Assembly: GCA_014843695.1 (NCBI GenBank)
Contig: CM026397.1
Span: 37,359,858 to 37,423,857 of the forward strand
DNA: 64,000 nucleotides
Origin: Archivesica marissinica
Taxonomy: Eukaryota > Mollusca > Bivalvia > Venerida > Vesicomyidae
Direction: 5' to 3'
A program made the translations under genes and the position numbers. Position 1 is the first letter of the stretch, and each line of letters begins with the position of its first letter. Positions 2,893 to 62,878 of this stretch are shown here, in pieces. The notes beneath the pieces were generated by a model. It saw only the letters and a program-made list of their open reading frames with translations. It had not been told where the DNA came from and did no database searches.

Positions 2893-4687
2893 AAGTAACC
2901 CGGTGGGAATGTAAGCAGTTAGTCATACTGCCTGGTGCAAGTAACCCGGTGGGAATGTAAGCAGTTAGTCATACTGCCTGGTGCAAGTTTCCCGGTGGGA
3001 ATGTAAGCAGTTAGTCATACTGCCTGGTGCAAGTAACCCGGTGGGAATGTAAGCAGTTAGTCATACTGCCTGGTGCAAGTAACTTGGTGGGAATGTAAGC
3101 AGTTAGTCATACTGCCTGGTGCAAGTAACTTGGTGGGAATGTAAGCAGTTAGTCATACTGCCTGGTGCAAGTAATTTGGTGGGAATGTAAGCAGTTAGTC
3201 ATACTGCCTGGTGCAAGTAACTTGGTGGGAATGTAAGCAGTTAGTCATACTGCCTGGTGCAAGTAACCTGGTGGGAATGTAAGCAGTTAGTCATACTGCC
3301 TGGTGCAAGTAACTTGGTGGGAATGTAAGCAGTTAGTCATACTGCCTGGTGCAAGTAACTTGGTGGGACTGTAAGCAGTTAGTCATACTGCCTGGTGCAA
3401 GTAACCTGGTGGGAATGTAAGCAGTTAGTCATACTGCCTGGTGCAAGTAACCCGGTGGGAATGTAAGCAGTTAGTCATACTGCCTGGTGTAAGTAACCCG
3501 GTGGGAATGTAAGCAGTTAGTCATACTGCCTGGTGTAAGTAACCCGGTGGGAATGTAAGCAGTTAGTCATACTGCCTGGTGCAAGTAACCCGGTGGGAAT
3601 GTAAGCAGTTAGTCATACTGCCTGGTGCAAGTAACCCGGTGGGAATGTAAGCAGTTAGTCATACTGCCTGGTGTAAGTAACCCGGTGGGAATGTAAGCAG
3701 TTAGTCATACTGCCTGGTGCAAGTAACCTGGTGGGAATGTAAGCAGTTAGTCATACTGCCTGGTGCAAGTAACCTGGTGGGAATGTAAGCAGTCATACTG
3801 CCTGGTGCAAGTAACTTGGTGGGAATGTAAGCAGTTAGTCATACTGCCTGGTGCAAGTAACTTGGTGGGAATGTAAGCAGTTAGTCATACTGCCTGGTGC
3901 AAGTAACTTGGTGGGAATGTAAGCAGTTAGTCATACTGCCTGGTGCAAGTAACCTGGTGGGAATGTAAGCAGTTAGTCATACTGCCTGGTGCAAGTAACC
4001 TGGTGGGAATGTAAGCAGTTAGTCATACTGCCTGGTGCAAGTAACTTGGTGGGAATGTAAGCAGTTAGTCATACTGCCTGGTGCAAGTAACTTGGTGGGA
4101 ATGTAAGCAGTTAGTCATACTGCCTGGTGCAAGTAACCTGGTGGGAATGTAAGCAGTTAGTCATACTGCCTGGTGCAAGTAAGCTGGTGGGAATGTAAGC
4201 AGTTAGTCATACTGCCTGGTGCAAGTAACTTGGTGGGAATGTAAGCAGTTAGTCATACTGCCTGGTGCAAGTAACTTGGTGGGAATGTAAGCAGTTAGTC
4301 ATACTGCCTGGTGCAAGTAACTTGGTGGGAATGTAAGCAGTTAGTCATACTGCCTGGTGCAAGTAACTTGGTGGGAATGTAAGCAGTTAGTCATACTGCC
4401 TGGTGCAAGTAACTTGGTGGGAATGTAAGCAGTTAGTCATACTGCCTGGTGCAAGTAACTTGGTGGGAATGTAAGCAGTTAGTCATACTGCCTGGTGCAA
4501 GTAACCCGGTGGGAATGTAAGCAGTTAGTCATACTGCCTGGTGCAAGTAACTTGGTGGGAATGTAAGCAGTTAGTCATACTGCCTGGTGCAAGTAACTTG
4601 GTGGGAATGTAAGCAGTTAGTCATACTGCCTGGTGCAAGTAACCTGGTGGGAATGTAAGCAGTTAGTCATACTGCCTGGTGCAAGTA
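2893..4687. repeat. 46-bp minisatellite, about 39 copies
   Basis: The unit core is GTGGGAATGTAAGCAGTTAG followed by TCATACTGCCTGGTGCAAGT. Most variation is confined to the AACCC/AACTT/AACCT positions before GTGGG. One unit near 3781 lacks the four bases TTAG. The low divergence implies recent expansion or homogenisation. Confidence 0.97.
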
Positions 4688-4879
4688 AGCCACAGGAGCT
4701 TCAAGAATTATCCATAACCCACAACAGTCTGGTATCTCTATCCTGGGGCCCCCATATATACATACAAGGTGTGTGATAATATCGGCCCCGGACGGCAGTA
4801 TTATCTATACAAATATTCGTACAATAAATCTGCATGTATGTTCCTACTTCAGACAGACACAATAATTATGTTATATTTC

Positions 4880-5110
4880 GGGTTTTACGCCTGCATCAGC
4901 ACCATTTTGGGCTATATCGCCGGTGGGCAGTTTACCTAACAACACCTTTCCTGGGCAGGCTCCAGCGGTTAACCAGTACTTTGGTGCACCAACCTCTGTA
5001 AGAAACTGCCAACTTTTTCATATAAATGAGACACGGCCCGAGCGGGGTTCGAACCCGTGACCATCAGTGATGATAGGTTACAGTGGTATACAAGTCAGCG
5101 ACCTTGACCA
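4880..5110 (-). mobile_element. tRNA-derived SINE-like element (minus strand)
   Basis: On the minus strand an A-box-like TCCGTGGTCAAGG near 5110 is followed by the B-box-like GGGTTCGAACCCC near 5045, then a body ending GGCGTAAAACCCGAAAT. This architecture is typical of mollusc SINEs. The boundaries are approximate. Confidence 0.55.
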
Positions 5111-7549: not shown

Positions 7550-7672
7550 TCATGGATTCACTGTGGTGTGTGTGGTCTCTGCTGAACCATTCCTCTGGTA
7601 CAAGGGGAGACTACTACCATTATCCTGATGATTCCTCCTACGCCACGCCAGGATATCAGACATGAAAAATAT
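7550..7672 (-). CDS. PLPP: PLPP exon 7 (terminal coding exon)
   Basis: The exon is 123 bp with its stop TGA at 7552-7550 and acceptor ATCTATTACAG before 7672. It begins IFFMSDILAWRRR, matching the vertebrate xVYVSDFFKER start of the last exon, and ends AETTHTTVNP, resembling the HTTL-type tail of vertebrate LPP1. The exon was found only by reading the frame from exon 6 in phase 0, and it closes the protein at 280 residues. The tail is cytosolic in the LPP topology. Confidence 0.85.
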   Translation of the reverse strand: MFFMSDILAWRRRNHQDNGSSLPLYQRNGSAETTHTTVNP

Positions 7673-10600
7673 CTGTAATAGATCAAATAGACGTATTAAA
7701 CTGGCGGCATATTCTACTACGTTAGGTACGATAGGCTACGTATACAAGTATCTAATGGTCGTGATAGTGCAGTGGTAGCGAGATTACTCCAGGTGTGAGA
7801 GGGCAGAGTTTGATCCCAGCTGTAGCCATTTCGATTGTACCCTTCTAAAGGCATGGTACTTAGATTCCACATTGCCTCTTCTCTCTCTCATGGCGATGGA
7901 TTCTATCAGGAATGAGGTCTCGAGAGCGATTAAAATAATGTTGTAAGAATTTGTTTCGCAATCGAGCTAAACTAAATTTGTATACATATCTAACAGTTAG
8001 GTAATACAGGCAAGTTACATTTAACTGTTAGTTAGGCAGGACAGGCAACGTAATTACAACAATTAGGTAGGACAGTCAACTTACGTCTAACTGTTAGTTA
8101 GGCAGGACAGGCAACGTAATTACAACAATTAGGTAGGACATGCAACGTAATTACAACAATTAGGACAGGACAGGCAACGTAATTACAACAACTAGGTAGA
8201 ACAGTCTAACTGTTAGTTAGGCAGGACAGTCAACGTAATTACAACAATTAGGTAGGACAGTCTACTTACGTCTAACTGTTAGTTAGGTAGGACAGCCTAC
8301 TTACATCTAACTGTTAGTTAGGCAGGACAGGCAACGTAATTACAACACTTAGGTAGGACAGGACAGGCAACGTAATTACAACAACTAGGTAGGACAGTCT
8401 ACTTACGTCTAACTGTTAGTTAGGTAGGACAGTCAATGTAATTACAACAATTAGGTAGGACAGGCAACGTAATTACAACAATTAGGTAGGACAGTCTACT
8501 TACGTCTAACTGTTAGTTAGGTAGGACAGTCAACGTAATTACAACAATTAGGTAGGACAGCCTACTTACATCTAACTGTTAGTTAGGTAGGACAGTCTAC
8601 TTACATCTAACTGTTAGTTAGGTAGGACAGCCTACTTACATCTAACTGTTAGTTAGGTAGGACAGTCTACTTACATCTAACTGTTAGTTAGGTAGGACAG
8701 CCTACTTACATCTAACTGTTAGTTAGGTAGGACAGCCTACTTACATCTAACTGTTAGTTAGGTTGGACAGTCTACTTACATCTAACTGTTAGTTAGGTAG
8801 GACAGCCTACTTACATCTAACTGTTAGTTAGGCAGGACAGGCAACGTAATTACAACAATTAGGTAGGACAGGCAACGTAATTACAACAACTAGGTAGAAC
8901 AGTCTACTTACGTCTAACTGTTAGTTAGGCAGGACAGTCAACGTAATTACAACAATTAGGTAGGACAGTCTACTTACGTCTAACTGTTAGTTAGGTAGGA
9001 CAGCCTACTTACGTCTAACTGTTAGTTAGGTAGGACAGTCTACTTACGTCTAACTATTAGTTAGGTAGGACAGTCTACTTACATCTAACTGTTAGTTAGG
9101 TAGGACAGCCTACTTACATCTAACTGTTAGTTAGGCAGGACAGGCAACGTAATTACAACACTTAGGTAGGACAGGACAGGCAACGTAATTACAACAACTA
9201 GGTAGGACAGTCTACGTACGTCTAACTGTTAGTTAGGTAGGACAGTCAATGTAATTACAACAATTAGGTAGGACAGGCAACGTAATTACAACAATTAGGT
9301 AGGACAGTCTACTTACGTCTAACTGTTAGTTAGGTAGGACAGTCAACGTAATTACAACAATTAGGTAGGACAGCCTACTTACATCTAACTGTTAGTTAGG
9401 TAGGACAGTCTACTTACATCTAACTGTTAGTTAGGTAGGACAGCCTACTTACATCTAACTGTTAGTTAGGTAGGACAGTCTACTTACATCTAACTGTTAG
9501 TTAGGTAGGACAGCCTACTTACATCTAACTGTTAGTTAGGTAGGACAGCCTACTTACATCTAACTGTTAGTTAGGTAGGACAGTCTACTTACATCTAACT
9601 GTTAGTTAGGTAGGACAGCCTACTTACATCTAACTGTTAGTTAGGCAGGACAGGCAACGTAATTACAACAATTAGGTAGGACAGGCAACGTAATTACAAC
9701 AACTAGGTAGAACAGTCTACTTACGTCTAACTGTTAGTTAGGCAGGACAGTCAACGTAATTACAACAATTAGGTAGGACAGTCTACTTACGTCTAACTGT
9801 TAGTTAGGTAGGACAGCCTACTTACGTCTAACTGTTAGTTAGGTAGGACAGTCTACTTACGTCTAACTGTTAGTTAGGTAGGACAGTCTACTTACATCTA
9901 ACTGTTAGTTAGGTAGGACAGCCTACTTATATCTAACTGTTAGTTAGGCAGGACAGGCAACGTAATTACAACACTTAGGTAGGACAGGACAGGCAATGTA
10001 ATTACAACAACTAGGTAGGACAGTCTACTTACATCTAACTGTTAGTTAGGCAGGGCAGGCAACGTAATTACAACAACTAGGTAGGACAGTCTACTTACAT
10101 TTAACTGTTAGTTAGGTAGGACAGGCAACGTAATTACAACAACTAGGTAGGACAGTCTACTTACGTCTAACTGTTAGTTAGGCAGGACAGGCAACGTAAT
10201 TACAACAACTAGGTAGGACAGCCTACTTACATCTAACTGTTAGTTAGGTAGGACAGTCTACTTACATCTAACTGTTAGTTAGGCAGGACAGGCAACGTAA
10301 TTACAACAACTAGGTAGGACAGTCTACTTATGTCTAACTGTTAGTTAGGTAGGACAGTCAACGTAATTACAACAATTAGGTAGGACAGGCAACATAATTA
10401 CAACAACTAGGTAGGACAGTCTACTTACATTTAACTGTTAGTTAGGTAGGACAGGCAACGTAATTACAACTAGGTAGGACAGTCTACTTACGTCTAACTG
10501 TTAGTTAGGTAGGACATTCAATGTAATTACAACAATTAGGTAGGACAGTCTACTTATGTCTAACTGTTAGTTAGGTAGGACATTCAATGTAATTACAACA

Positions 10601-13600
10601 ATTAGGTAGGACAGGCAACGTAATTACAACAATTAGGTAGGACAGCCTACTTACGTCTAACTGTTAGTTAGGTAGGACAGTCAATGTAATTACAACAATT
10701 AGGTAGGACAGTCTACTTACGTCTAACAATGATACAGTAGTTCCAATGAAGGCACCAGCCAGAACGTCACTCCAGTGATGCATGTAGTCGGAGACACGAG
10801 ACAGTGCTGTGTAATATGCCAGGAAGAATGCTAGAGCCTGCATGACTGGACGTATCAGCCAGTAACGTTTCCACGTGAACTTAAGCTGAAGGTAAACCTG
10901 CAATATAGGAGTTCACTAATTTTAAACTGAGTCCAAAAATGTGCATTAATCCTTTACTACACAACAGAAGAGGGCAATTACTCATTATATCTCTATACAG
11001 CTGATAAGCAACAGGCACACTGTACAACATAATCAACAGCAATACCTATAATGGGTAGGGGTTTTTCTAGAGAGTATCACCCTGCCATTTTAGCCCCGCC
11101 AATTTGCCTTTTTAAAATAACAATACACGCGTTCATTTGTTTTTCTGTAAGCCTCAACAGATGCCTTTGGGCTCCCCTATACAACTTGGAACTCATTCAG
11201 GACAGTCACATACAATGCACTTTCCTTTAGAACTCATTCAGGACAGTCACATACAATGTACTTTCCTTTAGAACTCATTCAGGACAGTCACATACAATGC
11301 ACTTTCCTTTAGAACTCATTCAGGACAGTCACATACAATGCACTTTCCTTTAGAACTCATTCAGGACAGTCACATACAATGCACTTTCCTTTAGAACTCA
11401 TTCAGGACAGTCACATACAATGCACTTTCCTTTAGAACTCATTCAGGACAGTCACATACAATGCACTTTCCTTTAGAACTCATTCAGGACAGTCACATAC
11501 AATGCACTTTCCTTTAGAACTCATTCAGGACAGTCACATACAATGCACTTTCCTTTAGAACTCATTCAGGACAGTCACATACAATGCACTTTCCTTTAGA
11601 ACTCATTCAGGACAGTCACATACAATGCACTTTCCTTTAGAACTCATTCAGGACAGTCACATACAATGCACTTTCATTTAGAACTCATTCAGGACAGTCA
11701 CATACAATGCACTTTCATTTAGAACTCATTCAGGACAGTCTCATACAATGCACTTTCATTTAGAACTCATTCAGGACAGTCACATACAATGCACTTTCAT
11801 TTAGAACTCATTCAGGACAGTCACATACAATGCACTTTCATTTAGAACTCATTCAGGACAGTCACATACAATGCACTTTCATTTTTTGCACAGGAATGTA
11901 TCTTTAATATGACATTTTTGCATTAATTACAGGTATGTAGATTGCAACGTTCGTGAAGGTACATGGACAGAACACTTTCAAATTGATTATTATGTCCTTC
12001 AATGTTGCAGACATATCTATGCACATACATGTAGGATACATCTACTAACAAACAAACAAAACAGACAAATGTCAAAAAGGTAATCTATGGAGGTAACAAT
12101 AGTTGAAGGTAGACTGTGTAACATAGATCTACTCACCATCAGCCAGATCATGCAGTAGAATGATATAGAGGAGTGTCCTGATGGGAATGACAACCTGCAA
12201 ATAAACGATTCTATCTAGAAAATGTTCACCTTCCGGCAATCGTTCATGTCCATTGCAGTTAATGAGGATTTCTATGCAAGGTCCATGTAACCTTGAGCAA
12301 AACACAGCCTCACTCAATTAGAACATCCCAATGCATTACAGATGGGGAATTAATACCCCCACCGCACTTTGATTTGTACAGGGCTCACATCCCCCACCTC
12401 ACTTTGATTTGTACAGGGCCCCCCCCCACCTCACTTTGATGTGTACAGGGCTCACATCCCCCACCTCACTTTGATTTGTACAGGGCTCACATCCCCCACC
12501 TCACTTTGATGTGTACAGGGCTCACATCCCCCCTCACTTTGATGTGTCACTTTGATGTGTACAGGGCTCACATCCCCCACCTCACTTTGATTTGTACAGG
12601 GCTCACATCCCCCACCTCACTTTGATGTGTACAGGGCTCACATCCCCCACCTCACTTTGATGTGTACAGGGCTCACATCCCACACCTCACTTTGATTTGT
12701 ACAGGGCTCACATCCCACACCTCACTTTGATGTGTACAGGGCTCACATCCCCCACCTCACTTTGATTTGTACAGGGCTCACATCCCACACCTCACTTTGA
12801 TGTGTACAGGGCTCACATCCCCCACCTCACTTTGATTTGTACAGGGCCCCCCCCACCTCACTTTGATGTGTACAGGGCTCACATCCCACACCTCACTTTG
12901 ATGTGTACAGGGCTCACATCCCCCACCTCACTTTGATGTGTACAGGGCTCACATCCCCCACCTCACTTTGATTTGTACAGGGCTCACATCCCACACCTCA
13001 CTTTGATGTGTACAGGGCTCACATCCCCCACCTCACTTTGATTTGTACAGGGCCCCCCCCACCTCACTTTGATGTGTACAGGGCTCACATCCCACACCTC
13101 ACTTTGATGTGTACAGGGCACACATCCCCCACCTCACTTTGATGTGTACATGGCTCACATCCCCCACCTCACTTTGATGTGTACAGGGCTCACATCCCCC
13201 ACCTCACTTAGATTTGTACAGGGCCCACACCCCTCTCACTTTGATGTGTACAGGTCCCACATCCTCAACCTCACTTAGATTTGTACAGGGCCCACATCCC
13301 ACACCTCACTTAGATTTGTACAGGGCCCACACCTCACTTAGATTTGTACAGGGCACACATCCCACACCTCACTTAGATTTGTACAGGGCCCACATCCCAC
13401 ACCTCACTTAGATTTGTACAGGGCACACATCCCACACCTCACTTAGATTTGTACAGGGCACACATCCCACACCTCACTTAGATTTGTACAGGGCACACAT
13501 CCCACACCTCACTTAGATTTGTACAGGGCACACATCCCACACCTCACTTAGATTTGTACAGGGCCCACACCCCCACCCCACTTAGATTTGTACAGGGCCC

Positions 13601-16600
13601 ACACCCCCACCTCACTTAGATTTGTACAGGGCCCACACCCCCACTTCACTTAGATTTGTACAGGGCCCACACACCCCCTTACTTAGATTTGTACAGGGCC
13701 CACATCCTCCACCCCACTTAGATTTGTACAGGGCCCACACACCCCCTTACTTAGATTTGTACAGGGCCCACATCCTCCACCCCACTTAGATTTGTACATG
13801 GCCCACTCTGGAACATTATCGTACAAAGCTTGTTATGGTCGAGAAGGTCACCCACATTTCATGGATTGTAACCACGTGTTCCGTCTGTCTCAATTTTTGT
13901 CTGTGCCACTTCTATCGACAATTAAAAGACACTGGAGCCAACTAATAGTCGTACAGTTCACAGATAAATATTTGAAGCCATGAATTTGATAAAACTTGTT
14001 GTGCCAAAATATTTTAGACAATTCACCAAATTATACGCCAGTATTTGTTTTTTGTCGCAATTGGCGACCAACAGCAGGAACCCTGGAAACAAGTTCTCAA
14101 TTCCCCAACCTCCACAAGCGACAACTTTCCAATATATTATCATTTTATCACTTGTCCCTGACAAGGAGCAAGCTCACGGTTCTGATGATAGCGATGAATT
14201 GTCAAACAACGGTGTACAAGACAACAACACCCCTCACATTTACCTAGGAAGTGCACATTGAAATTTAATATATTCAAAGGGGGGAGATATACGCAGAGCC
14301 CAGATGCATTAGATGCAGACACAGCAACTATATTACCTACAGTTCATTTTAAATACAGTTAAACTTGTATTAAGAGAGCACCAAAGGGAAGGGGTAAAAT
14401 GTGGTCTCTAAGCAGGAATGGTCTCTTAATACAAATTAAATAGGAATTAAACATGTGGTCTCTTAATACAAGTGGTCTCTTAATACAAGACTTTAGTGGT
14501 CTCTTAATATACATGGTTTTTCAAGTAATTTTGACTGTATATGACACTAGTGACATTTACCTGGCTTCCTCAATAGCTGCAGTATCTGTTCCTGTACAAA
14601 CATCTCCTGTCAGAAACCCTAGTAATATACAAATCATGTGTAATTATATAATATATTGTACAAACATCTCCTGTCACAAACCTCTAGTAATATACAAATC
14701 ATGTGTACTTATATAATATATTGTACAAACATCTCCTGTCAGAAACCTCTAGTAATATACAAATCATGTGTAATTATATAATATATTGTACACACATCTC
14801 CTGTCAGAAACATCTAGTAATATACAAAATCCCCATTGTCATCTCCAGTGACCCTAATATGACAATAACTGACCAATGTCTCTCATTAAGAGGACATTAT
14901 CTACCTTTAGGAGTATTCAGGGGCAGTAACTGTCCAATGTCTCTCATTAAGAGGACCGTATCTACCTTTAGGAGTATTCAGGGGCAGTAACTGTCCAATG
15001 TTTCTCATTAAGAGGACATTATCTACCTTTAGGAGTATTCAGGTGCAGTAACTGTCCAATGTCTCTCATTAAGAGGACCGTATCTACCTTTAGGAGTATT
15101 CAGGGGCAGTAACTGTCCAATGTTTCTCATTAAGAGGACCGTATCTACCTTTAGGAGTATTCAGGGGCAGTAACTGTCCAATGTTTCTCATTAAGAGGAC
15201 CTTATCTACCTTTAGGAGTATTCAGGGGCAGTAACTGACTAATGTTTCTCATTAAGAGGACATTATCTACCTTTAGGAGTATTCAGGTGCAGTAACTGTC
15301 CAATGTCTCTCATTAAGAGGACCGTATCTACCTTTAGGAGTATTCAGGGGCAGTAACTGTCCAATGTTTCTCATTAAGAGGACCGTATCTACCTTTAGGA
15401 GTATTCATGGGCAGTAACTGGCCAATGTATCTCATTAAGAGGACAGTATCTACCTTTAGGAGTATTCAGGGGCAGTAACTGTCCAATGTTTCTCATTAAG
15501 AAGACATTATCTACCTTTAGGAGTATTCAGGGGCAGTAACTGTCCAATGTTTCTCATTAAGAGGACCGTATCTACCTTTGGGAGTATTCAGGGGCAGTAA
15601 CTGTCCAATATTTCTCATTAAGAGGACCGTATCTACCTTTAGAAGTATTCAGGGGCAGTAACTGTCCAATGTATCTCATTAAGAGGACATTATCTACCTT
15701 TAGGAGTATTCAGGGGCAGTAACTGTCCAATGTCTCTCATTAAGAGGACCTTATCTACCTTTAGGAGTATTCATGGGCAGTAACTGACTAAATGTTTCTC
15801 ATTAAGAGGACCTTATCTACCTTTAGGAGTATTCATGGGCAGTAACTGTCCAATGTATCTCATTAAGAGGACAGTATCTACCTTTAGGAGTATTCAGGGG
15901 CAGTAACTGTCCAATGTTTCTCATTAAGAAGACATTATCTACCTTTAGGAGTATTCAGGGGCAGTAACTGTCCAATGTTTCTCATTAAGAAGACATTATC
16001 TACCTTTAGGAGTATTCATGGGCAGTAACTGTCCAATGTATCTCATTAAGAGGACATTATCTACCTTTAGGAGTATTCAGGGGCAGTAACTGACCAATGT
16101 ATCTCATTAAGAGGACATTATCTACCATTAGGAGTATTCAGGGGCAGTAACTGACTAATGTTTCTCATTAAGAGGACATTATCTACCTTTACAAGTATTC
16201 AGGGGCAGTAACTGTCCAATGTTTCTCATTAAGAGGACCGTATCTACCTTTGGGAGTATTCAGGGGCAGTAACTGTCCAATGTTTCTCATTAAGAGGACC
16301 GTATCTACCTTTAGGAGTATTCAGGGGCAGTAACTGTCCAATGTATCTCATTAAGAGGACATTATCTACCTTTAGGAGTATTCAGGGGCAGTAACTGTCC
16401 AATGTCTCTCATTAAGAGGACATTATCTACCTTTAGGAGTATTCATGGGCAGTAACTGTCCAATGTATCTCATTAAGAGGACAGTATCTACCTTTAGGAG
16501 TATTCAGGGGCAGTAACTGTCCAATGTTTCTCATTAAGAAGACATTATCTACCTTTAGGAGTATTCAGGGGCAGTAACTGTCCAATGTTTCTCATTAAGA

Positions 16601-22600: not shown

Positions 22601-25600
22601 TTTCTCATTAAGAAGACATTATCTACCTTTAGGAGTATTCAGGGGCAGTAACTGTCCAATGTTTCTCATTAAGAGGACATTATCTACCTTTAGGAGTATT
22701 CAGGTGCAGCAACTGACCAATGTCTCTCATTAAGAGGACATTATCTACCTTTAGGAGTATTCAGGGGCAGTAACTGTCCAATGTCTCTCATNNNNNNNNN
22801 NNNNNNNNNNNNNNNNNNNNNNNNNNNNNNNNNNNNNNNNNNNNNNNNNNNNNNNNNNNNNNNNNNNNNNNNNNNNNNNNNNNNNNNNNNNNNNNNNNNN
22901 NNNNNNNNNNNNNNNNNNNNNNNNNNNNNNNNNNNNNNNNNNNNNNNNNNNNNNNNNNNNNNNNNNNNNNNNNNNNNNNNNNNNNNNNNNNNNNNNNNNN
23001 NNNNNNNNNNNNNNNNNNNNNNNNNNNNNNNNNNNNNNNNNNNNNNNNNNNNNNNNNNNNNNNNNNNNNNNNNNNNNNNNNNNNNNNNNNNNNNNNNNNN
23101 NNNNNNNNNNNNNNNNNNNNNNNNNNNNNNNNNNNNNNNNNNNNNNNNNNNNNNNNNNNNNNNNNNNNNNNNNNNNNNNNNNNNNNNNNNNNNNNNNNNN
23201 NNNNNNNNNNNNNNNNNNNNNNNNNNNNNNNNNNNNNNNNNNNNNNNNNNNNNNNNNNNNNNNNNNNNNNNNNNNNNNNNNNNNNNNNNNNNNNNNNNNN
23301 NNNNNNNNNNNNNNNNNNNNNNNNNNNNNNNNNNNNNNNNNNNNNNNNNNNNNNNNNNNNNNNNNNNNNNNNNNNNNNNNNNNNNNNNNNNNNNNNNNNN
23401 NNNNNNNNNNNNNNNNNNNNNNNNNNNNNNNNNNNNNNNNNNNNNNNNNNNNNNNNNNNNNNNNNNNNNNNNNNNNNNNNNNNNNNNNNNNNNNNNNNNN
23501 NNNNNNNNNNNNNNNNNNNNNNNNNNNNNNNNNNNNNNNNNNNNNNNNNNNNNNNNNNNNNNNNNNNNNNNNNNNNNNNNNNNNNNNNNNNNNNNNNNNN
23601 NNNNNNNNNNNNNNNNNNNNNNNNNNNNNNNNNNNNNNNNNNNNNNNNNNNNNNNNNNNNNNNNNNNNNNNNNNNNNNNNNNNNNNNNNNNNNNNNNNNN
23701 NNNNNNNNNNNNNNNNNNNNNNNNNNNNNNNNNNNNNNNNNNNNNNNNNNNNNNNNNNNNNNNNNNNNNNNNNNNNNNNNNNNNNNNNNNNTACCTTTAG
23801 GAGTATTCAGGGGCAGTAACTGTCCAATGTCTCTCATTAAGAGGACAGTATCTACCTTTAGGAGTATTCAGGGGCAGTAACTGTCCAATGTTTCTCATTA
23901 AGAGGACATTATCTACCTTTAGGAGTATTCAGGGGCAGTAACTGTCCAATGTTTCTCATTAAGAGGACATTATCTACCTTTAGGAGTATTCAGGGGCAGT
24001 AACTGTCCAATGTCTCTCATTAAGAGGACATTATCTACCTTTAGGAGTATTCAGGTGCAGTAACTGTCCAATGTCTCTCATTAAGAGGACATTATCTACC
24101 TTGGTTTTGGGGTGTTGTTTTTGGGTTTTTTTAGGAGTATTCAGGGGCAGTAACTGTCCAATGTATCTCATTAAGAGGACATTATCTACCTTTAGGAGTA
24201 TTCATGGGCAGTAACTGTCCAATGTATCTCATTAAGAGGACATTATCTACCTTTAGGAGTATTCAGGGGCAGTAACTGTCCAATGTTTCTCATTAAGAGG
24301 ACATTATCTACCTTTAGGAGTATTCAGGGGCAGTAACTGTCCAATGTTTCTCATTAAGAGGACATTATCTACCTTTAGGAGTATTCAGGGGCAGTAACTG
24401 TCTAATGTTCTCATTAAGAGGACATTATCTACCTTTAGGAGTATTCAGGGGCAGTAACTGTCCAATGTTTCTCATTAAGAGGACATTATCTACCTTTAGG
24501 AGTATTCAGGGGCAGTAACTGTCCAATGTTTCTCATTAAGAGGACATTATCTACCTTTAGGAGTATTCATGGGCAGTAACTGTCCAATGTCTCTCATTAA
24601 GAGGACATTATCTACCTTTAGGAGTATTCAGGGGCAGTAACTGACTAATGTTTCTCATTAAGAGGACATTATCTACTTATGAGTATTTAGGTGCAGCAAT
24701 TGACCAATGTCTCTCATTAAGAGGACATTATCTACCTTTAGGAGTATTCAGGGGCAGTAACTGTCCAATGTCTCTCATTAAGAGGACATTATCTACCTTT
24801 AGGAGTATTCAGGTGCAGTAACTGTCCAATGTCTCTCATTAAGAGGACCTTATCTACCTTTAGGAGTATTCAGGGGCAGTAACTGTCCAATGTTTCTCAT
24901 TAAGAGGACATTATCTACCTTTAGGAGTATTCAGGGGCAGTAACTGTCCAATGTTTCTCATTAAGAGGACATTATCTACCTTTAGGAGTATTCAGGGGCA
25001 GTAACTGTCCAATGTCTCTCATTAAGAGGACAGTATCTACCTTTAGGAGTATTCAGGGGCAGTAACTGTCCAATGTTTCTCATTAAGAGGACATTATCTA
25101 CCTTTAGGAGTATTCAGGGGCAGTAACTGTCCAATGTTTCTCATTAAGAGGACATTATCTACCTTTAGGAGTATTCAGGGGCAGTAACTGTCCAATGTCT
25201 CTCATTAAGAGGACATTATCTACCTTTAGGAGTATTCAGGGGCAGTAACTGTCCAATGTATCTCATTAAGAGGACATTATCTACCTTTAGGAGTATTCAG
25301 GGGCAGTAACTGTCCAATGTTTCTCATTAAGAGGACATTATCTACCTTTAGGAGTATTCAGGGGCAGTAACTGTCCAATGTATCTCATTAAGAGGACATT
25401 ATCTACCTTTAGGAGTATTCAGGGGCAGTAACTGTCCAATGTCTCTCATTAAGAGGACATTATCTACCTTTAGGAGTATTCAGGGGCAGTAACTGTCCAA
25501 TGTCTCTCATTAAGAGGACATTATCTACCTTTAGGAGTATTCAGGGGCAGTAACTGTCCAATGTTTCTCATTAAGAGGACATTATCTACCTTTAGGAGTA

Positions 25601-31600: not shown

Positions 31601-34600
31601 TGCATAAAAAATGGCGATTTGATATCATCACGTGGTTTTATCGTATGTAATATTTCCCGTACGTTTCGCGTACTTCGCCGCATAAAGCGACACTGCCTTC
31701 GTACGATATCATAGAGGTAAAGAAACTTTGTAATTATAGTTTATTTGATTTAATCTACCGTATGTTTTTAAATACGACATGATTAAAGACACGATGTGTT
31801 GGTTATTTTTAAGGGAAATATTTACTATGTACAATGCATTGCATAAAAAAAAACTTTTTGGCTGCAGTATTTCAATTGTTTGTAGCGATAATTAATTTCG
31901 ACAAACCATTCACAATGGGTCCCAGTTTAATTAGGTAGGCTACACGTGTTGAGAAGTTTGAGCATCTGCTGACATGTTTGAGAACATGTTGAGATGTTTG
32001 AGAACGATATGCATGTAATTTTCATGAAATCATGCCTGAGTGGCGTGAGTGCGTTACCGTTACGCTAATTTTTAGCAATTCTTGAGAAATGTTAAATTTT
32101 TACTTGGAAAATTGCGTTTTTCACGTGCGCAGTATACATCGGAACTCAGTTTTGCCCCCGATTTTCGTGCCAAATCGTGGGTGCGCATTATACACACGAT
32201 AGCGCACTATACATAACTAAATACGGTACCTTTAGGAGTATTCAGGGGCAGTAACTGACCAATGTTTCTCATTAAGAGGACATTATCTACCTTTAGGAGT
32301 ATTCAGGGGCAGTAACTGTCCAATGTCTCTCATTAAGAGGACATTATCTACCTTTAGGAGTATTCAGGGGCAGTAACTGTCCAATGTCTCTCATTAAGAG
32401 GACATTATCTACCTTTAGGAGTATTCAGGGGCAGTAACTGTCCAATGTCTCTCATTAAGAGGACATTATCTACCTTTAGGAGTATTCAGGGGCAGTAACT
32501 GTCCAATGTTTCTCATTAAGAGGACAGTATCTACCTTTAGGAGTATTCAGGGGCAGTAACTGTCCAATGTTTCTCATTAAGAGGACATTATCTACCTTTA
32601 GGAGTATTCAGGGGCAGTAACTGTCCAATGTATCTCATTAAGAGGACATTATCTACCTTTAGGAGTATTCAGGGACAGTAACTGTCCAATGTATCTCATT
32701 AAGAGGACATTATCTACCTTTAGGAGTATTCAGGGGCAGTAACTGTCCAATGTATCTCATTAAGAGGACATTATCTACCTTTAGGAGTATTCAGGGACAG
32801 TAACTGTCCAATGTTTCTCATTAAGAGGACATTATCTACCTTTAAGAGTATTCAGGGGCAGTAACTGACTAATGTTTCTCATTAAGAGGACATTATCTAC
32901 CTTTAGGAGTATTCAGGGGCAGTAACTGTCCAATGTATCTCATTAAGAGGACATTATCTACCTTTAGGAGTATTCAGGGGCAGTATCTGTCCAATGTCTC
33001 TCATTAAGAGGACATTATCTACCTTTAGAAGTATTTAGGGGCAGTAACTGTCCAATGTATCTCATTAAGAGGACATTATCTACCTTTAGGAGTATTCAGG
33101 GGCAGTAACTGTCCAATGTATCTCATTAAGAGAACATTATCTACCTTTAGGAGTATTCAGGGGCAGTAACTGACCAATGTTTCTCATTGGAAGCACGTTT
33201 ACAAAATAAATAGTGAACAGACCTGTATTGATAGAGCAGCTGGCTACATTTGGTTGGCACACTGTGATAAAATGTGGTCGGAGTCGGCCAATTGTATATT
33301 TTGCTATGTCGGTTGTTAACTGAGTCACACCAGCCCCAAAGTAAAATGGTATGAGCAATTTATAACAAATAGCGAAGTATGAAACCAGCCTCGTCTTCGT
33401 GTGCAATGCCATACATGCTTCTAAAACGAGGATCTGCAGAAATATATACAAGAGTACATGAATTGTGTAAACACAAATTTTAAGCATACATGGACAATTG
33501 TTTACCGTATACAAATTTCTTTGAACTCAATTGTCGAAATAAGTTATAAAAAAATATGATGATCACACTCGATACCTCATTTCTGATGGAATCCAATAAG
33601 GGGCAGTGTGGTCAGTATGGGCAACACCATCGAGGTTCTGGCGGGGTTCCACTTCCCAACCTCTCGATTACGAAGCAGACAGACACCAAATCCATCACAC
33701 CACAAAGGCTCTTTGTAAATACTAATTATCCTTAAACCCCTTTTCAAATTTAAGAAATTCAAATACATTATAATTCAGTTGAGTGAGCATTTCTTGGCAA
33801 CATACACAGTTTACACAGATGATTTAGAGGGTCATATAGCGATCTACCAGATACAGATGATTTAGAGGGTCATATAGCGATCTACAAGATACAGATGATT
33901 TAGAGGATCATATAGCGATCTACCAGATACAGATGATTTAGAGGGTCATATAGCAATCTACCAGATACAGATGATTTAGAGGGTCATATAGCGATCTACC
34001 AGATACAGATGATTTAGAGGGTTATATAGCGATCTACAAGATACAGATGATTTCGAAGGTTATATAGCGATCTACCAGATATAGGTGATTTAGAGGGTCA
34101 TATAGTGATCTACAAGATACAGGTGATTTAGAGGGTCATATAGCAATCTACCAGATACAGTTGATTTCGAGGGTTATATAGCGATCTACCAGCTACATGT
34201 GGTTTAGAGGGTTATATAGCGATCTACAAGATACAGGTGATTTAGAGGGGCATATAGCGATCTACAAGATACAGGTGATTTAGAGGGGCATATAGCGATC
34301 TACAAGATACAGATGATTTAGAGGGGCATATAGCGATCTACCAGATACAGGTGATTTAGAGGGTCATATAGTGATCTACAAGATACAGGTGATTTAGAGG
34401 GTCATATAGCGATCTACAAGATACAGCTGATTTAGAGGGTCATATAGCGATCTACAAGATACAGATGATTTAGAGGGTCATATAGCGATCTACCAGATAG
34501 AGATGATTTAGAGGGTCATATAGCGATCTACAAGATACAGATGATTTAGAGGTCATATAGCGATCTACCAGATACAGATGATTTAGAGGGTCATATAGTG

Positions 34601-37224
34601 ATCTACAAGATACAGATGATTTAGAGGGGCATATAGCGATCTACAAGATACAAATGATTTAGAGGGTCATATAGCGATCTACAAGATACAGATGATTTAG
34701 AGGGTCATATAGTGATCTACAAGATACAAATGATTTAGAGGGTCATATAGCGATCTACAAGATACAGATGATTTAGAGGGTCATATAGCGATCTACCAGA
34801 TACAGGTGATATAGAGGGGCATATAGCGATCTACAAGATACAGGTGATTTAGAGGGTCATATAGCGATCTACAAGATACAGGTGATTTAGAGGGGCATAT
34901 AGCGATCTACCTGATACAGATGATTTAGAGGGTCAATAGCTGTTTTACCAGATGCAGATGATTTATAGGGGCATATAGCGATCTACAAGATACAGGTGAT
35001 TTAGAGGGTCATATAGGGATCTACCAGATACAGATGATTTAGAGGGTTATATAGCAATCTACAGGATACAGGTGATTTAGAGGGTCATATAGCGATCTAT
35101 AAGATACAGGTGATTTAGAGGGTCATATAGCGATCTACAAGATACAGGTGATTTAGAGGGTCATATAGCGATCTACAAGATACAGATGATTTAGAGGGTC
35201 ATATAGCGATCTACCAGATACAATGATTTAGATGGTCAATAGCTATTTTACCAGATACAGATGATTTAGAGGGTCATATAGCGATCTACAAGATACAGAT
35301 GATTTAGAGGGTCAATAGCTGTTTTACCAGATACAGATGATTTAGAGGGTCATATAGCGATCTACTAGATACAGATGTAATACATAGCTTACTGTGAGCG
35401 ATGGTAGAACAATACCAATAAATCCTGCCACCCAGGTTGGTATAGTGTTTGACTTGTATGGATGCATGAGGCTTTCATCGTCACAATAGAATCCGCGCTC
35501 GTAACCCTTAGCTACTGCAAACAATACCAAGACAGGGACTCCAACTGAAACAAAATGCATAGTATGATACTGTATGCAATATTTAGAATTTGTCAAATCA
35601 AAATAAACCTGTCACCACAGTACACAGAAAACCTTTCCAACATAAAAGTGAACATATTCCTTTATACTGTACACAGATTAATGAATCTACCAAGTGGCCA
35701 CAAATGTTGGCACCCAGAACTCCCTAACCTTTCCCTGATCCAGAAAGCCCAAAGTTCTCCGTTGTCATTGCAGCATCTGTCGAAGGTTCTTTGATGATAA
35801 CACAGGCGTACATTAGTTATTCGACTATGAAACCGTTTATTGGCCAATTTGGAACTACCTGAATTTCTCTGATTTTCGGAATTTGTGATCTTCCTTGCAG
35901 GGAATTTTTAATCTCAAATTCCCTGACTTTCCCAGATCTGTGAACACCCTGAACTAGAAGTGCAAACATAATAGTTATGGAGAAAATCTCAATAAGCTTT
36001 AAGCTTCCGATTTAATCCATTTTCGTTTTGTATACAATGTATAATATTATGTAATGTACATTATTATCGAATAAATATGTTTAAACCAAACATAATAGTT
36101 TCGCAAGATACTGATAGTGATTAGGTAAACCACGTTTACATATATTTTTCACTAACAGCTGAACAGCGAAAACACTTGTATTCTATTGTAGGATTTTGAA
36201 TTTGCGATCTGAGCAGGAGTTCAAAACAATTCAGGGACTTCCGATTTTTCCTTGAGCAAGAAAATGTATTCCCATTATTTGTCCTGGGTCTGTGTAATCC
36301 CAGGATGCAGATAAGAGTGCTGTGTAATCCCAGGATGCAGATAAGAGTGCTGTGTAATCCCAGGATGCAGATAAGAGTGCTGTGTAATCCCAGGATGTAG
36401 ATAAGAGTGCTGTGTAATCCCAGGATGCAGATAAGAGTGCTGTGTAATCCCAGGATGTAGATAAGAGTGCTGTGTAATCCCAGGATGTAGATAAGAGTGC
36501 TGTGTAATCCCAGGATGTAGATAAGAGTGCTGTGTAATCCCAGGATGCAGATAAGAGTGCTGTGTAATCCCAGGATGTAGATAAGAGTGCTGTGTAATCC
36601 CAGGAAGCAGATGACTACATTAAGCTCGGAGCTTTCATCACAATCAAGCTCAAACAAATTAGTATAAGGCCACAGAAAACTCTAAGAAGGTGGGATAAAT
36701 ACTTATATTACAAGCTAGTATAGTGTTACTCAATACAATATGTTGACAATAATTATACAATGTATCGTAGTTTTTCCAGCATCTTAGTGTGTATCGATGC
36801 CGCTTGGAGAATTGTGTAGTTATTGTACATGAACATATTTATGTTGGTTTTGTCTCCGGTAATGGGTGTTTGTCTCCAATAATGGGCTTTGTCTCCGGTA
36901 ATGGGTTATCGGGGATCCGTAGCTCAGATGGTAGCGTGTTTGCCTCCGTAGCTGAGGGTCGCAAGTTTGTCATGAAGTAAGGATGTGTACATGGTTACTC
37001 AATTAGTAAACGTGCTCTGCTTACACGTGTAAATGTGGGAAGACCTGTGAACAGGAAAGCAACTGTGTAACTATTATTTTAGATTTTACATTAATTAGCC
37101 ACACTTTGTACTATTATAAAGGTGTATACATACCACATACAATGGAAAGAATGTCGAACGCCACCCGTAAAAGGGCTTTCCTTTGATTGATTTCCATCTC
37201 GGATTCAGCGGCAGGTCTCAGCGT
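7550..37224 (-). CDS. PLPP: Phospholipid phosphatase (LPP/wunen family), seven coding exons
   Basis: This is an integral membrane lipid phosphatase of the PAP2 superfamily; the family dephosphorylates phosphatidate, lysophosphatidate, ceramide-1-phosphate and sphingosine-1-phosphate at the cell surface or lumen. The exons are 37134-37224, 35393-35544, 33223-33433, 14561-14618, 12137-12194, 10721-10897 and 7550-7672, all read on the minus strand with GT-AG junctions and compatible phases. From the ATG at 37197 the frame totals 843 nt, or 280 residues plus stop, close to the usual LPP length of about 285. Motif C1 is K117...R124-P125 (KYTIGRLRP), C2 is PSGH at 166-169, and C3 is S214-R215...H221...D225 (SRVSDYMHHWSD), so the catalytic residues are intact. 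Six hydrophobic segments fit the six-helix topology. The loop after C1 (126-160) has no N-x-S/T sequon, where vertebrate LPPs carry one. Exon 1 is open nine codons upstream to a splice acceptor, so a further 5' exon, coding or UTR, is likely. No convincing polyA signal was found within about 500 bp downstream. Confidence 0.95.
7745..7980 (+). mobile_element. tRNA-derived SINE-like element in PLPP intron 6
   Basis: The head GTGATAGTGCAGTGGTAGCG resembles an A box, AGAGTTTGATCCCAGCT a decayed B box, and the tail AATGTTGTAAGAATTTGTTTC with CGCAATCG matches the element at 2395-2607. It is inserted antisense to PLPP. Confidence 0.55.
7985..10720. repeat. PLPP intron 6 compound minisatellite carrying splice-donor copies
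   Basis: Two modules alternate: a 35-bp module with CTAACTGTTAGTTAGGTAGG and CTTACGTCTAA, and a module with CAACGTAATTACAACAATTA. On the PLPP strand the first module reads GTTAGAC|GTAAGTAGACTGTCC, the exon 6/intron 6 junction itself. About 40 copies keep GTAAGT. A higher-order repeat of 813 bp is visible: the marker ACAACACTT occurs at 8342, 9155 and 9968. Confidence 0.97.
10721..10897 (-). CDS. PLPP: PLPP exon 6 with catalytic motif C3
   Basis: The exon is 177 bp, residues 182-240. The acceptor is ATTGCAG before 10897 and the donor is a perfect GTAAGT at 10720-10715. It encodes helix 5 and C3, SRVSDYMHHWSDVLAG, whose H221 is the expected phosphate nucleophile, and the start of helix 6. The exon end runs straight into the intron 6 minisatellite: about 8 exon bases (GTTAGAC and neighbours) and the donor are part of the repeated unit. 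Confidence 0.95.
11188..11883. repeat. PLPP intron 5 minisatellite, 41-bp unit, about 17 copies
   Basis: The unit contains GAACTCATTCAGGACAGTCA followed by CATACAATGCACTTTCCTTTA. It is nearly uniform; the distal five to six copies carry TTTCATTTA in place of TTTCCTTTA, marking directional spread of a variant. Confidence 0.97.
12137..12194 (-). CDS. PLPP: PLPP exon 5 with PSGH motif C2
   Basis: The exon is 58 bp, completing Arg162 and encoding LSFPSGHSSISFYCMIWLM. The acceptor is TTTGCAG before 12194 and the donor is GTGAGT at 12136-12131. The PSGH histidine (H169) is the general acid of the PAP2 active site in this family. The ORF visible here in another frame is a shadow. Vertebrate LPP genes, as I recall them, keep C2 and C3 in one exon, so the intron after this exon would be extra. 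Confidence 0.93.
12343..13800. repeat. PLPP intron 4 minisatellite, about 34-bp unit, about 42 copies
   Basis: The core is CACTTTGATTTGTACAGGGC followed by TCACATCCCCCAC. The left part uses CTTTGAT(G/T)TG and the right part (from about 13201) uses CTTAGATTTG with GGGCCCACA, so two subfamilies occupy opposite halves. The C-rich strand is the plus strand. Confidence 0.97.
13801..14348. other. Unique intron 4 sequence
   Basis: Overlapping short ORFs on both strands show no family features. No exon is needed here because exons 4 and 5 join in phase. Confidence 0.55.
14349..14542. mobile_element. MITE-like element built on TTAAGAGA/TCTCTTAATA motifs
   Basis: ATACAGTTAAACTTGTATTA at the left is partly mirrored by a right end reading TTTTGACTGTAT, and GGTCTCTTAATACAA is repeated between them. 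This looks like a degenerate inverted-repeat element. The boundaries are uncertain. Confidence 0.45.
14561..14618 (-). CDS. PLPP: PLPP exon 4 (58 bp, luminal loop)
   Basis: This short exon links VCQP...CSINT in exon 3 to RLSFPSGH in exon 5. It encodes FLTGDVCTGTDTAAIEEA with split Gly and Arg codons at its ends. The acceptor is ATTACTAG before 14618 and the donor is GTAAAT at 14560-14555. Phase in is 1 and phase out is 2, and both join correctly. The residues correspond to the YxCxG...EGR segment before PSGH in animal LPPs. The acceptor and first half of the exon are copied in tandem just upstream in the intron (14657-14829). Confidence 0.88.
14593..14829. repeat. 64-65-bp tandem repeat containing the PLPP exon 4 acceptor
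   Basis: Units start at 14593, 14657, 14722 and 14787. Each includes, on the minus strand, the branch/acceptor region ending ATTACTAG and about 25 bp of exon 4 (GTTTCTGACAGGAGATGTTT). Only the first unit continues into the complete exon. The other three carry a 2-bp difference right at the junction (CTAGAG in place of CTAG). Confidence 0.9.
14862..26029. repeat. PLPP intron 3 minisatellite, 61-bp unit, segment 1
   Basis: The unit contains CCAATGTCTCTCATTAAGAG, then GACATTATCTACCTTTAGGA, then GTATTCAGGGGCAGTAACTG. About 167 units are readable. Variants occur at a few fixed positions (GT(C/T/A)TCTC, GAC(A/C)(T/G)TA, CAGG/CATG). A 1,000-N gap lies inside. Clusters of small deletions near 17090, 19200, 20540 and 25690 look like unpolished consensus. 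Confidence 0.98.
22792..23791. other. Assembly gap of exactly 1,000 N
   Basis: The gap lies inside the 61-bp array with the same repeat on both sides, so the true array length is unknown. Confidence 1.
26034..28389. mobile_element. 2.36-kb non-autonomous DNA transposon inserted in the 61-bp array
   Basis: The ends are inverted repeats GACCTTTCTGC (26034) and GCAGAAAGGTC (ending 28389), flanked by AATT on both sides (26030-26033 and 28390-28393) as a likely 4-bp target duplication. The interior is AT-rich and has no transposase ORF. Near each end an ATGGCG in good context opens a short frame (26118, 42 codons; 28299). Superfamily is undetermined. Confidence 0.8.
28390..31287. repeat. PLPP intron 3 minisatellite, 61-bp unit, segment 2
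   Basis: About 47 further units of the same 61-bp repeat, continuing in register on both sides of the transposon. They are more uniform than segment 1. Confidence 0.97.
31288..32226. mobile_element. pogo/Tc1-mariner-like non-autonomous element, 939 bp
   Basis: The 25-bp terminal inverted repeats start CCATATTTAGCTATGTATAG and CCGTATTTAGTTATGTATAG and end in TGCGC, with TA on each side (31286-31287, 32227-32228). A subterminal GTGTATAATGCGC motif is also mirrored. TA target site and CCGTATTTA-type ends suit the Tc1/mariner/pogo group. There is no transposase ORF. Confidence 0.85.
32227..33188. repeat. PLPP intron 3 minisatellite, 61-bp unit, segment 3
   Basis: About 16 units, the last breaking off in TTTCTCATTGG about 34 nt from the exon 3 donor. 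Intron 3 as assembled is 18.6 kb, mostly this repeat. Confidence 0.97.
33223..33433 (-). CDS. PLPP: PLPP exon 3 with catalytic motif C1
   Basis: The exon is 211 bp, residues 73-142 plus one base. The acceptor is TTTCTGCAG before 33433 and the donor is GTCTGT at 33222-33217, a weaker than consensus site. It encodes helix 3 and the C1 motif in TDIAKYTIGRLRPHF, followed by the VCQP stretch typical of LPPs. The 61-bp intron 3 array begins about 34 nt beyond the donor. Confidence 0.95.
33811..35376. repeat. PLPP intron 2 minisatellite, 38-bp unit, about 41 copies
   Basis: The unit contains GATTTAGAGGGTCATATAGC followed by GATCTACAAGATACAGAT. C(C/A)AG and GATGAT/GGTGAT variants are intermixed. A few units read TCAATAGCTGTTTTACCAG. 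The array ends 16 nt from the exon 2 donor. Confidence 0.97.
35393..35544 (-). CDS. PLPP: PLPP exon 2
   Basis: The exon is 152 bp, residues 22-72. The acceptor is TTTCAG before 35544 and the donor is GTAAGC at 35392-35387. It encodes the end of helix 1, the first luminal loop with the family signature YERGFYCDDESLMHPYK, and helix 2 (TIPTWVAGFIGIVLPSLT). The matching vertebrate segment is the RGxxCxDESIxYPYKxxTI stretch. The intron 2 minisatellite ends only 16 nt from this donor. Confidence 0.93.
35545..36287. other. Unique intron 1 sequence
   Basis: It contains no exon that would fit between exons 1 and 2, which join directly. A CAAACATAATAGTT motif occurs twice (about 35964 and 36088). Confidence 0.5.
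36288..36608. repeat. PLPP intron 1 minisatellite, 30-bp unit, about 10.5 copies
   Basis: The unit is TGTGTAATCCCAGGATG(C/T)AG followed by ATAAGAGTGC. The only common variant is the C/T site, in irregular order. The minus-strand ORF of 173 codons reflects the 10-codon unit. Confidence 0.96.
36848..36990 (+). mobile_element. tRNA-like SINE remnant in PLPP intron 1
   Basis: Three TTTGTCTCCGGTAATGGG-like repeats precede TCCGTAGCTCAGATGGTAGC, a good A-box-like motif. The expected B box region (GTCGCAAGTTTG) is decayed, so this is a remnant and no functional tRNA is called. Confidence 0.4.
37134..37224 (-). CDS. PLPP: PLPP exon 1 (first recognised coding exon)
   Basis: The exon is 91 bp, with acceptor TTTACAG ending at 37225 and donor GTATGT at 37133-37128. 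It encodes MEINQRKALLRVAFDILSIV plus C, the start of the first membrane helix, and ends in phase 1. Nine in-frame codons (TLRPAAESE) precede the Met, so either translation starts at this ATG with a spliced leader, or another coding exon lies upstream among the arrays beyond 37.4 kb. I chose the ATG because the resulting 280-residue length matches the family. Confidence 0.85.
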
Positions 37225-62587: not shown

Positions 62588-62878
62588 CAGACGGATATGT
62601 AGTCCAGTGGTAACACGCTGGACTGGTAATCCAGGGATCGCAGGTTCGATCCCCCGTCTGACCCTAATAAAATTAACAGTCTTTCAGATGGGACATTAAA
62701 CCGAGGTCTCGTGTCGGTGCTTTACACCGTGCACGTAAAAGAACCAGAGGAGATTCTGGAATGGGTCTCTATCTGTATCATGCACTATCCTCCAAAATCT
62801 AAAATAACTAATCTCTTCAGGAGGCGTCGCTCATATGGGTAACCGGTAGCGACGATAAATAAACGTAAAAACACACAT
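62588..62878 (+). mobile_element. SINE family A, full-length tRNA-derived copy
   Basis: The 291-bp element is flanked by AAAACATGATGAA at 62575-62587 and 62879-62891, a likely 13-bp target duplication, although the left flank also has a local 19-bp repeat of similar sequence. The head 62589-62659 folds as a tRNA: AGACGG pairs with CCGTCT, the A box is TAGTCCAGTGG, the B box is GGTTCGATCCC, and the CTGGA/TCCAG stem holds loop CTGGTAA (anticodon GGT, threonine-like). The body runs to CGATAAATAAACGTAAAA. Copies or parts occur at 6905, 50796 and 62211. Confidence 0.92.

Follow-up and report, generated by a model that had tools for sequence, protein, structure and literature searches.

A splice-junction minisatellite in a phospholipid phosphatase gene of the bivalve Archivesica marissinica carries 41 intact copies of the exon 6 splice donor and likely arose by tandem duplication

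The window analysed here is a stretch of 64,000 nucleotides from contig CM026397.1 of the vesicomyid bivalve Archivesica marissinica (assembly GCA_014843695.1). Its minus strand holds a complete phospholipid phosphatase gene, the coding exons of which were located by tblastn with bivalve relatives (Table 1). Upon exact joining, the seven coding exons have consistent phases and encode a protein of 280 amino acids without internal stop. The joined protein contains a PAP2 domain (PF01569, 93.4 bits at a cut-off of 27.2, E 1.2e-26) and aligns to the solved PLPP1-3 (PLPP1, E 3.1e-57). The catalytic motifs of PLPP/wunen proteins have the forms KxxxxxxRP, SGH and SRxxxxxHxxxD; all three are present, as KYTIGRLRP, PSGH and SRVSDYMHHWSD. 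Full-length identity amounts to 78% with P0124 and to 76% with the Mercenaria mercenaria protein P0125. By domain, motifs and alignment, the gene product is a predicted phospholipid phosphatase (PLPP/wunen). A search of the genome assembly (1.54 Gb, 2808 contigs, the first 19 of which measure 47-110 Mb) with exon 6 gave a single match.

Table 1. Coordinates of the phospholipid phosphatase gene and of its junction-spanning arrays in the window
Feature	Position	Strand	Basis
Coding part of exon 1 with ATG	37134..37197	-	tblastn and exon joining
Coding exon 2	35393..35544	-	exon joining
Coding exon 3	33223..33433	-	exon joining
Junction-spanning array at exon 4 acceptor, 65-bp unit, 3.6 copies	14593-14828	-	TRF, sequence, scripted check
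Coding exon 4, 58 nt	14561..14618	-	exon joining
Coding exon 5, 58 nt	12137..12194	-	exon joining
Coding exon 6, 177 nt	10721..10897	-	exon joining
End of exon 6, ATTGTTAGAC, partly repeated in units	10721..10730	-	unit alignments
Real donor GTAAGT of intron 6	10715..10720	-	in-phase exon joining and protein continuity with relatives
Intron 6	10720-7673	-	exon joining
Minisatellite of intron 6, reaching 10 nt into exon 6	7995..10730	-	TRF 7995-10727; 31-bp register reaches 10730
Stop codon met on read-through past real donor	10664..10666	-	all 41 decoys lie beyond this stop
First decoy donor, +66 nt, in frame	10649..10654	-	sequence scan
Coding exon 7 with stop codon	7550..7672	-	tblastn and exon joining

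Concerning the end of exon 6, the junction with intron 6 lies between 10721 and 10720 and reads TTG TTA GAC/GTAAGT, with the G of the donor at 10720. Exon 7 begins at 7672, directly after TATTACAG. Protein homology runs without gaps over the exon 6/7 join, which reads SLLD/IFFMSDILAW here, ALLDVFFMSDILAW in P0124, ALLDVFFMSDIQTW in P0125, ALLDVFFMSNILPW in P0127 and AILDVFFMSDILAW in P0004. The end of exon 6 is settled, since protein homology runs across this join in the relatives. The aspartate which terminates exon 6 is shared by six of ten bivalve proteins (P0004, P0124, P0125, P0127, P0128, P0129); its position is taken by N in P0126 and by V in P0132 and P0133, and the residue is absent in gene model P0005.

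The donor is followed by a minisatellite that occupies 89% of intron 6. The TRF call consists of two joined rows, the main one of which has a 35-bp unit. A full parse of the array yielded 81 classed units and five other pieces. Two types of unit are present, a 35-bp type (47 units, 46 of them full length and one of 25 bp; consensus CCTACCTAACTAACAGTTAGATGTAAGTAGACTGT) and a 31-bp type (34 units, 32 of them full length; consensus CCTACCTAATTGTTGTAATTACGTTGCCTGT). Among the 35-bp units, 41 of the 47 contain GTAAGT in intact form; the 31-bp units, 34 in number, contain none. Counted from the end of exon 6 as far as exon 7, the sense strand carries 42 GTAAGT, the real donor and 41 copies, versus zero GTRAGT on the antisense strand; 500 dinucleotide shuffles of the array contained a mean of 7.0 and a maximum of 14 GTAAGT. 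The bases before the 42 sites are GTTAGAC in 17 cases, including the real donor, GTTAGAT in 23 and GTTAAAT in two. Units and exon end share GTTAGAC in the 35-bp type and ATTGTT, just upstream, in the 31-bp type, so that the copied exon end amounts to 7 nt in the former type and to 10 nt (ATTGTTAGAC) in the latter. The array also repeats internally with a period of 813 bp and an identity of up to 100% across 300 nt, which indicates that it has recently grown by duplication. The donor-less 31-bp units match the junction unit at 28 of 31 positions if a 10-bp inversion of the donor is allowed and at 25 of 31 without it; as an equal gain was obtained in 3% of 2000 random-mutation controls, derivation of the 31-bp unit from the junction unit by such an inversion is a weak lead.

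The first-pass annotation had placed the exon 6 donor at GTTAGAC/GTAAGT and had named beforehand a true donor elsewhere as grounds to give up its claim; the homology on both sides of the junction bears the placement out. A lack of similarity upstream of GTAAGT in the array units had been the other such ground, and the aligned units do carry exon-like bases. Its statement that exon bases are repeated together with the donor proved correct, the repeated part being 7-10 nt of the exon 6 end. Its figure of about 40 repeats agrees with the number of donors and falls short of the number of units. The assertion that each unit is a decoy does not stand, as 40 of the 81 classed units, namely the 34 of the 31-bp type and six mutated ones of the 35-bp type, are without GTAAGT.

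Scored with a vertebrate consensus table, the real donor reaches 7.11 and the decoys reach 7.11 (16 sites), 8.53 (23 sites) or 9.32 (two sites). All 41 decoys therefore score equal to or above the real donor, and the equality in quality previously claimed for the decoys holds by consensus score for the intact copies. U1 complementarity, proposed together with that claim as a check, is in line with it: the predicted duplex amounts to -7.3 kcal/mol at the real site, to -7.3 at 15 decoys, to -7.0 at 25 and to -5.7 at one, which places 40 of 41 decoys between -7.0 and -7.3 kcal/mol. Among the other 304 GT sites of intron 6, none comes within one bit of the score of the real donor. Concealment of the decoys by RNA folding was considered and rejected, predicted accessibility being at least that of the real donor in 22 of 41 decoys with 120-nt windows and in 30 of 41 with 200-nt windows. 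The real donor is thus favoured neither by its score nor by its pairing with U1 nor by its predicted accessibility.

Use of the decoys would have defined consequences. Read-through past the real donor adds 18 new residues and meets a stop 54 nt on. As every decoy includes this same in-frame stop, the full conserved protein is to be expected from the first donor only. The junction of the first decoy lies 9 nt past the stop, those of the other 40 at least 172 nt past it. The predicted product of the first decoy has 258 residues, retains the three catalytic motifs and misses the last 40 residues. According to the mammalian 50-nt rule for nonsense-mediated decay, mRNA spliced at the first decoy should escape decay, and mRNAs spliced at the other 40 would be decay targets. 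It had been suggested that the cell must choose the first donor or tolerate variable products. Decoys do add intron sequence, as foreseen; the products are not freely variable, as they share one stop.

A second array spans a junction of the same gene, at the acceptor of exon 4. Its units copy the acceptor together with 26 nt of the exon, and three extra acceptors are found upstream, ending at 14684, 14749 and 14814. The segment TTTGTATATTACTAG with the exon bases that follow is present another three times upstream in slightly altered form, and the acceptor sequence TATTACTAG is retained in all three upstream copies. Splicing to the real acceptor yields GFLTGDVCTGTD, matching P0124; any of the three upstream acceptors is predicted to change the frame and to lead to a stop after residue 158. 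When the 12 junctions between coding exons were scanned as 24-mers for further copies within the window (up to five mismatches), two had copies, donor 6 with 45 and acceptor 4 with two.

A further array, in intron 4 (12356-13806, minus strand), holds 41 donor-like sites, 23 of AAA/GTGAGG and 18 of GAG/GTGGGG. They score equal to or above the exon 6 donor, and the array touches no exon. As these 41 sites lie away from junctions, introns here tolerate donor-like sites in general, which speaks against a special status of the exon 6 array.

Of the window, 63% consists of tandem arrays, as do 79% of the introns of the gene and 33 of its 843 coding nucleotides. Array coverage in 20 sampled 10-kb stretches from 19 contigs had a mean of 39% and a median of 29% (range 1-100%); this is a small sample, drawn at one position per contig, except for two on contig C1. 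The genome appears to be very rich in minisatellites. The idea that arrays seek out splice sites was rejected: for the 37 merged arrays of the window, 0.99 edges are expected in the 843 coding nucleotides and two were observed (P 0.26), and for the 11 arrays within the gene 0.65 edges are expected in coding exons and two were observed (P 0.14). Since two such edges are not above chance, the data do not call for any attraction of arrays to splice sites. Control 24-mers outside arrays had a copy in the window in 31 of 300 cases, compared with two of 12 for junction 24-mers. Arrays beginning in the edge of an exon and expanding into the intron are just those that can be tolerated. Besides the PLPP array, at least five GTRAGT on one strand were found in three of 209 TRF rows (L003, L011 and L021), the rows being those with a period of at least 15 and at least three copies, with possible overlaps, from the 20 sampled stretches, two flanks and the window; inspection by eye revealed no clear coding exon at the edges of these three arrays.

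Minisatellite-like tandem repeats of intron/exon boundaries have been described as mirages in the lancelet genes for Adh3, globin, troponin C and PGBD5 (PMC3087553, PMC3902484). As described there, mirages duplicate 5' as well as 3' boundaries, reportedly leave regular splicing undisturbed and vary in length, with BflGb6 haplotypes of 3 and 6 repeat units. The clam arrays likewise span exon-intron boundaries of both kinds. They are tandem repeats of the minisatellite type, with units of 35 and 31 bp at exon 6 and of 65 bp at exon 4, and each takes in exon bases, 7-10 nt at exon 6 and 26 nt at exon 4. Many units, not all, carry splice signals (AG/GT), as in the published mirages; here GTAAGT is present in 41 of 81. 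Unlike BflGb6 as reported, the exon 6 array counts about 81 units, and 41 of its donors are intact. It further differs from the lancelet cases described in its mollusc host and in the presence of both boundary kinds in one gene, and it is known from one assembled copy alone. In the literature searched, judged mostly by titles and abstract openings and hence as weak evidence, no splice-junction minisatellite of a mollusc was found.

Comparable repeats are described in human genes. The VNTR in intron 18 of ABCA7 has a 25-bp unit including the exon 18 donor and ranges from 12 to about 427 units; retention of one unit was observed (PMC5954066). As in the clam, the array begins at the donor of the exon and the unit carries this donor, whereas according to the ABCA7 account its unit starts at GT and contains no exon bases, in contrast to the 7-10 nt found here. 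The 31-bp VNTR of CBS, c.1444_1467+7, has 16 to 21 units (PMC2630376) and, as read from its notation, a unit that spans the exon-intron boundary like that of the clam array. The 68-bp duplication c.844_845ins68 of the same gene copies the intron 7/exon 8 junction, and one copy is described as strongly preferred (PMC2630376); it resembles the exon 4 array but is a single extra copy. In IFI6 (6-16), one exon draws its splice donors from the units of a minisatellite, and two downstream units are reported to be used, yielding isoforms (PMC4526556). The clam gene differs from this account in that a stop codon precedes all of its decoys. Judged by its sequence, the clam array is a large and real splice-junction minisatellite of the known mirage kind, and the gene carries two of them.

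We consider it likely that this mirage originated from tandem duplication of the end of exon 6 together with the start of intron 6, and we predict that the 41 extra donors are bypassed in favour of the first. The junction of an intact PLPP gene would have been duplicated in tandem, which would have left 41 intact donor copies within intron 6. Exon definition is predicted to pick the exon-proximal donor, and the array may persist since all its copies lie in the intron; stray use of the first decoy would result in a truncated protein, and that of any other decoy would expose the mRNA to nonsense-mediated decay. Copying probably proceeded from the exon to the array, because relatives mostly share the residues encoded at the exon end. 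The confinement of the donors to the sense strand (42 versus 0) and the second junction array in the same gene, with copies that all shift the frame, argue for this reading. So do the gapless homology over the exon 6/7 join, the exon bases in the units, the recent growth of the array and the reportedly normal splicing of lancelet mirages. Against it stand the shortness of the copied exon end, the terminal aspartate of which is not universal, the equal standing of real donor and decoys in score, pairing and accessibility, and the use of some downstream units described for human ABCA7 and IFI6.

This use of downstream units in ABCA7 and IFI6 would fit with a splicing dial. Here a constant fraction of the transcripts would be spliced at decoys, the resulting mRNA being unproductive or truncated, and array length would tune the enzyme level or create a second membrane tail. 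The dial is also compatible with decoy scores that match or exceed that of the real donor at all 41 sites and with the layout of the decoys, the first being in frame with its stop 9 nt before the new junction and expected to escape decay, the others having junctions at least 172 nt past the stop. On the other hand, there is no sign that decoys are kept or thinned according to their distance from the exon: the first 700 nt hold eight of the 41 (P 0.47), which does not support thinning near the exon. Normal splicing is moreover reported for the lancelet mirages in the accounts cited above. We regard the dial as rather unlikely. If it were true, array length would set phosphatase output heritably, and many genes of this minisatellite-rich genome would carry dials. 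Capture of a donor, whereby an older array provided exon 6 with its present donor, is very improbable: the 7-10 nt common to exon end and unit are expected from either direction of copying, but relatives have L-L-D or I-L-D directly before the exon 7 residues, and the exon end thus appears older than the array. That the donors form a U1 snRNP platform which suppresses premature polyadenylation in the intron is highly improbable: the 42 strong U1 sites within 3 kb would suit such a role, but intron 6 contains zero AATAAA/ATTAAA, as compared to 14 in the 18.6-kb intron 3, which has one GTAAGT.

The gene offers a natural test of donor choice, with one real site facing 41 near-identical copies in the same intron, and with three acceptor copies in another intron. 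Normal splicing would mean that the position beside the exon very strongly outweighs donor strength; if splicing is not normal, array length would be a source of expression variation. The clam arrays suggest that minisatellites of splice junctions are no peculiarity of lancelets and may be frequent wherever minisatellites are dense.

Further features of the window were noted. None of 10 open frames chosen at 46-62 kb had a Pfam match above a cut-off. The large 61-bp array of intron 3 contains exactly 1000 N at 22792-23791, an assembly gap that makes the assembled length of this array provisional. Downstream of the gene, at 2893-4688 (minus strand), lies a 46-bp array the units of which, by eye, resemble a branch point plus acceptor (TGACTAAC ... 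TTACATTCCCACCAG). Stretches resembling tRNA were seen by eye at 5040-5110 (minus strand) and 7757-7830 (plus strand), and a third, at 62593-62665 (plus strand), matches the Rfam tRNA family with 34 bits. ARAGORN found no tRNA; the stretches are perhaps heads of SINEs.
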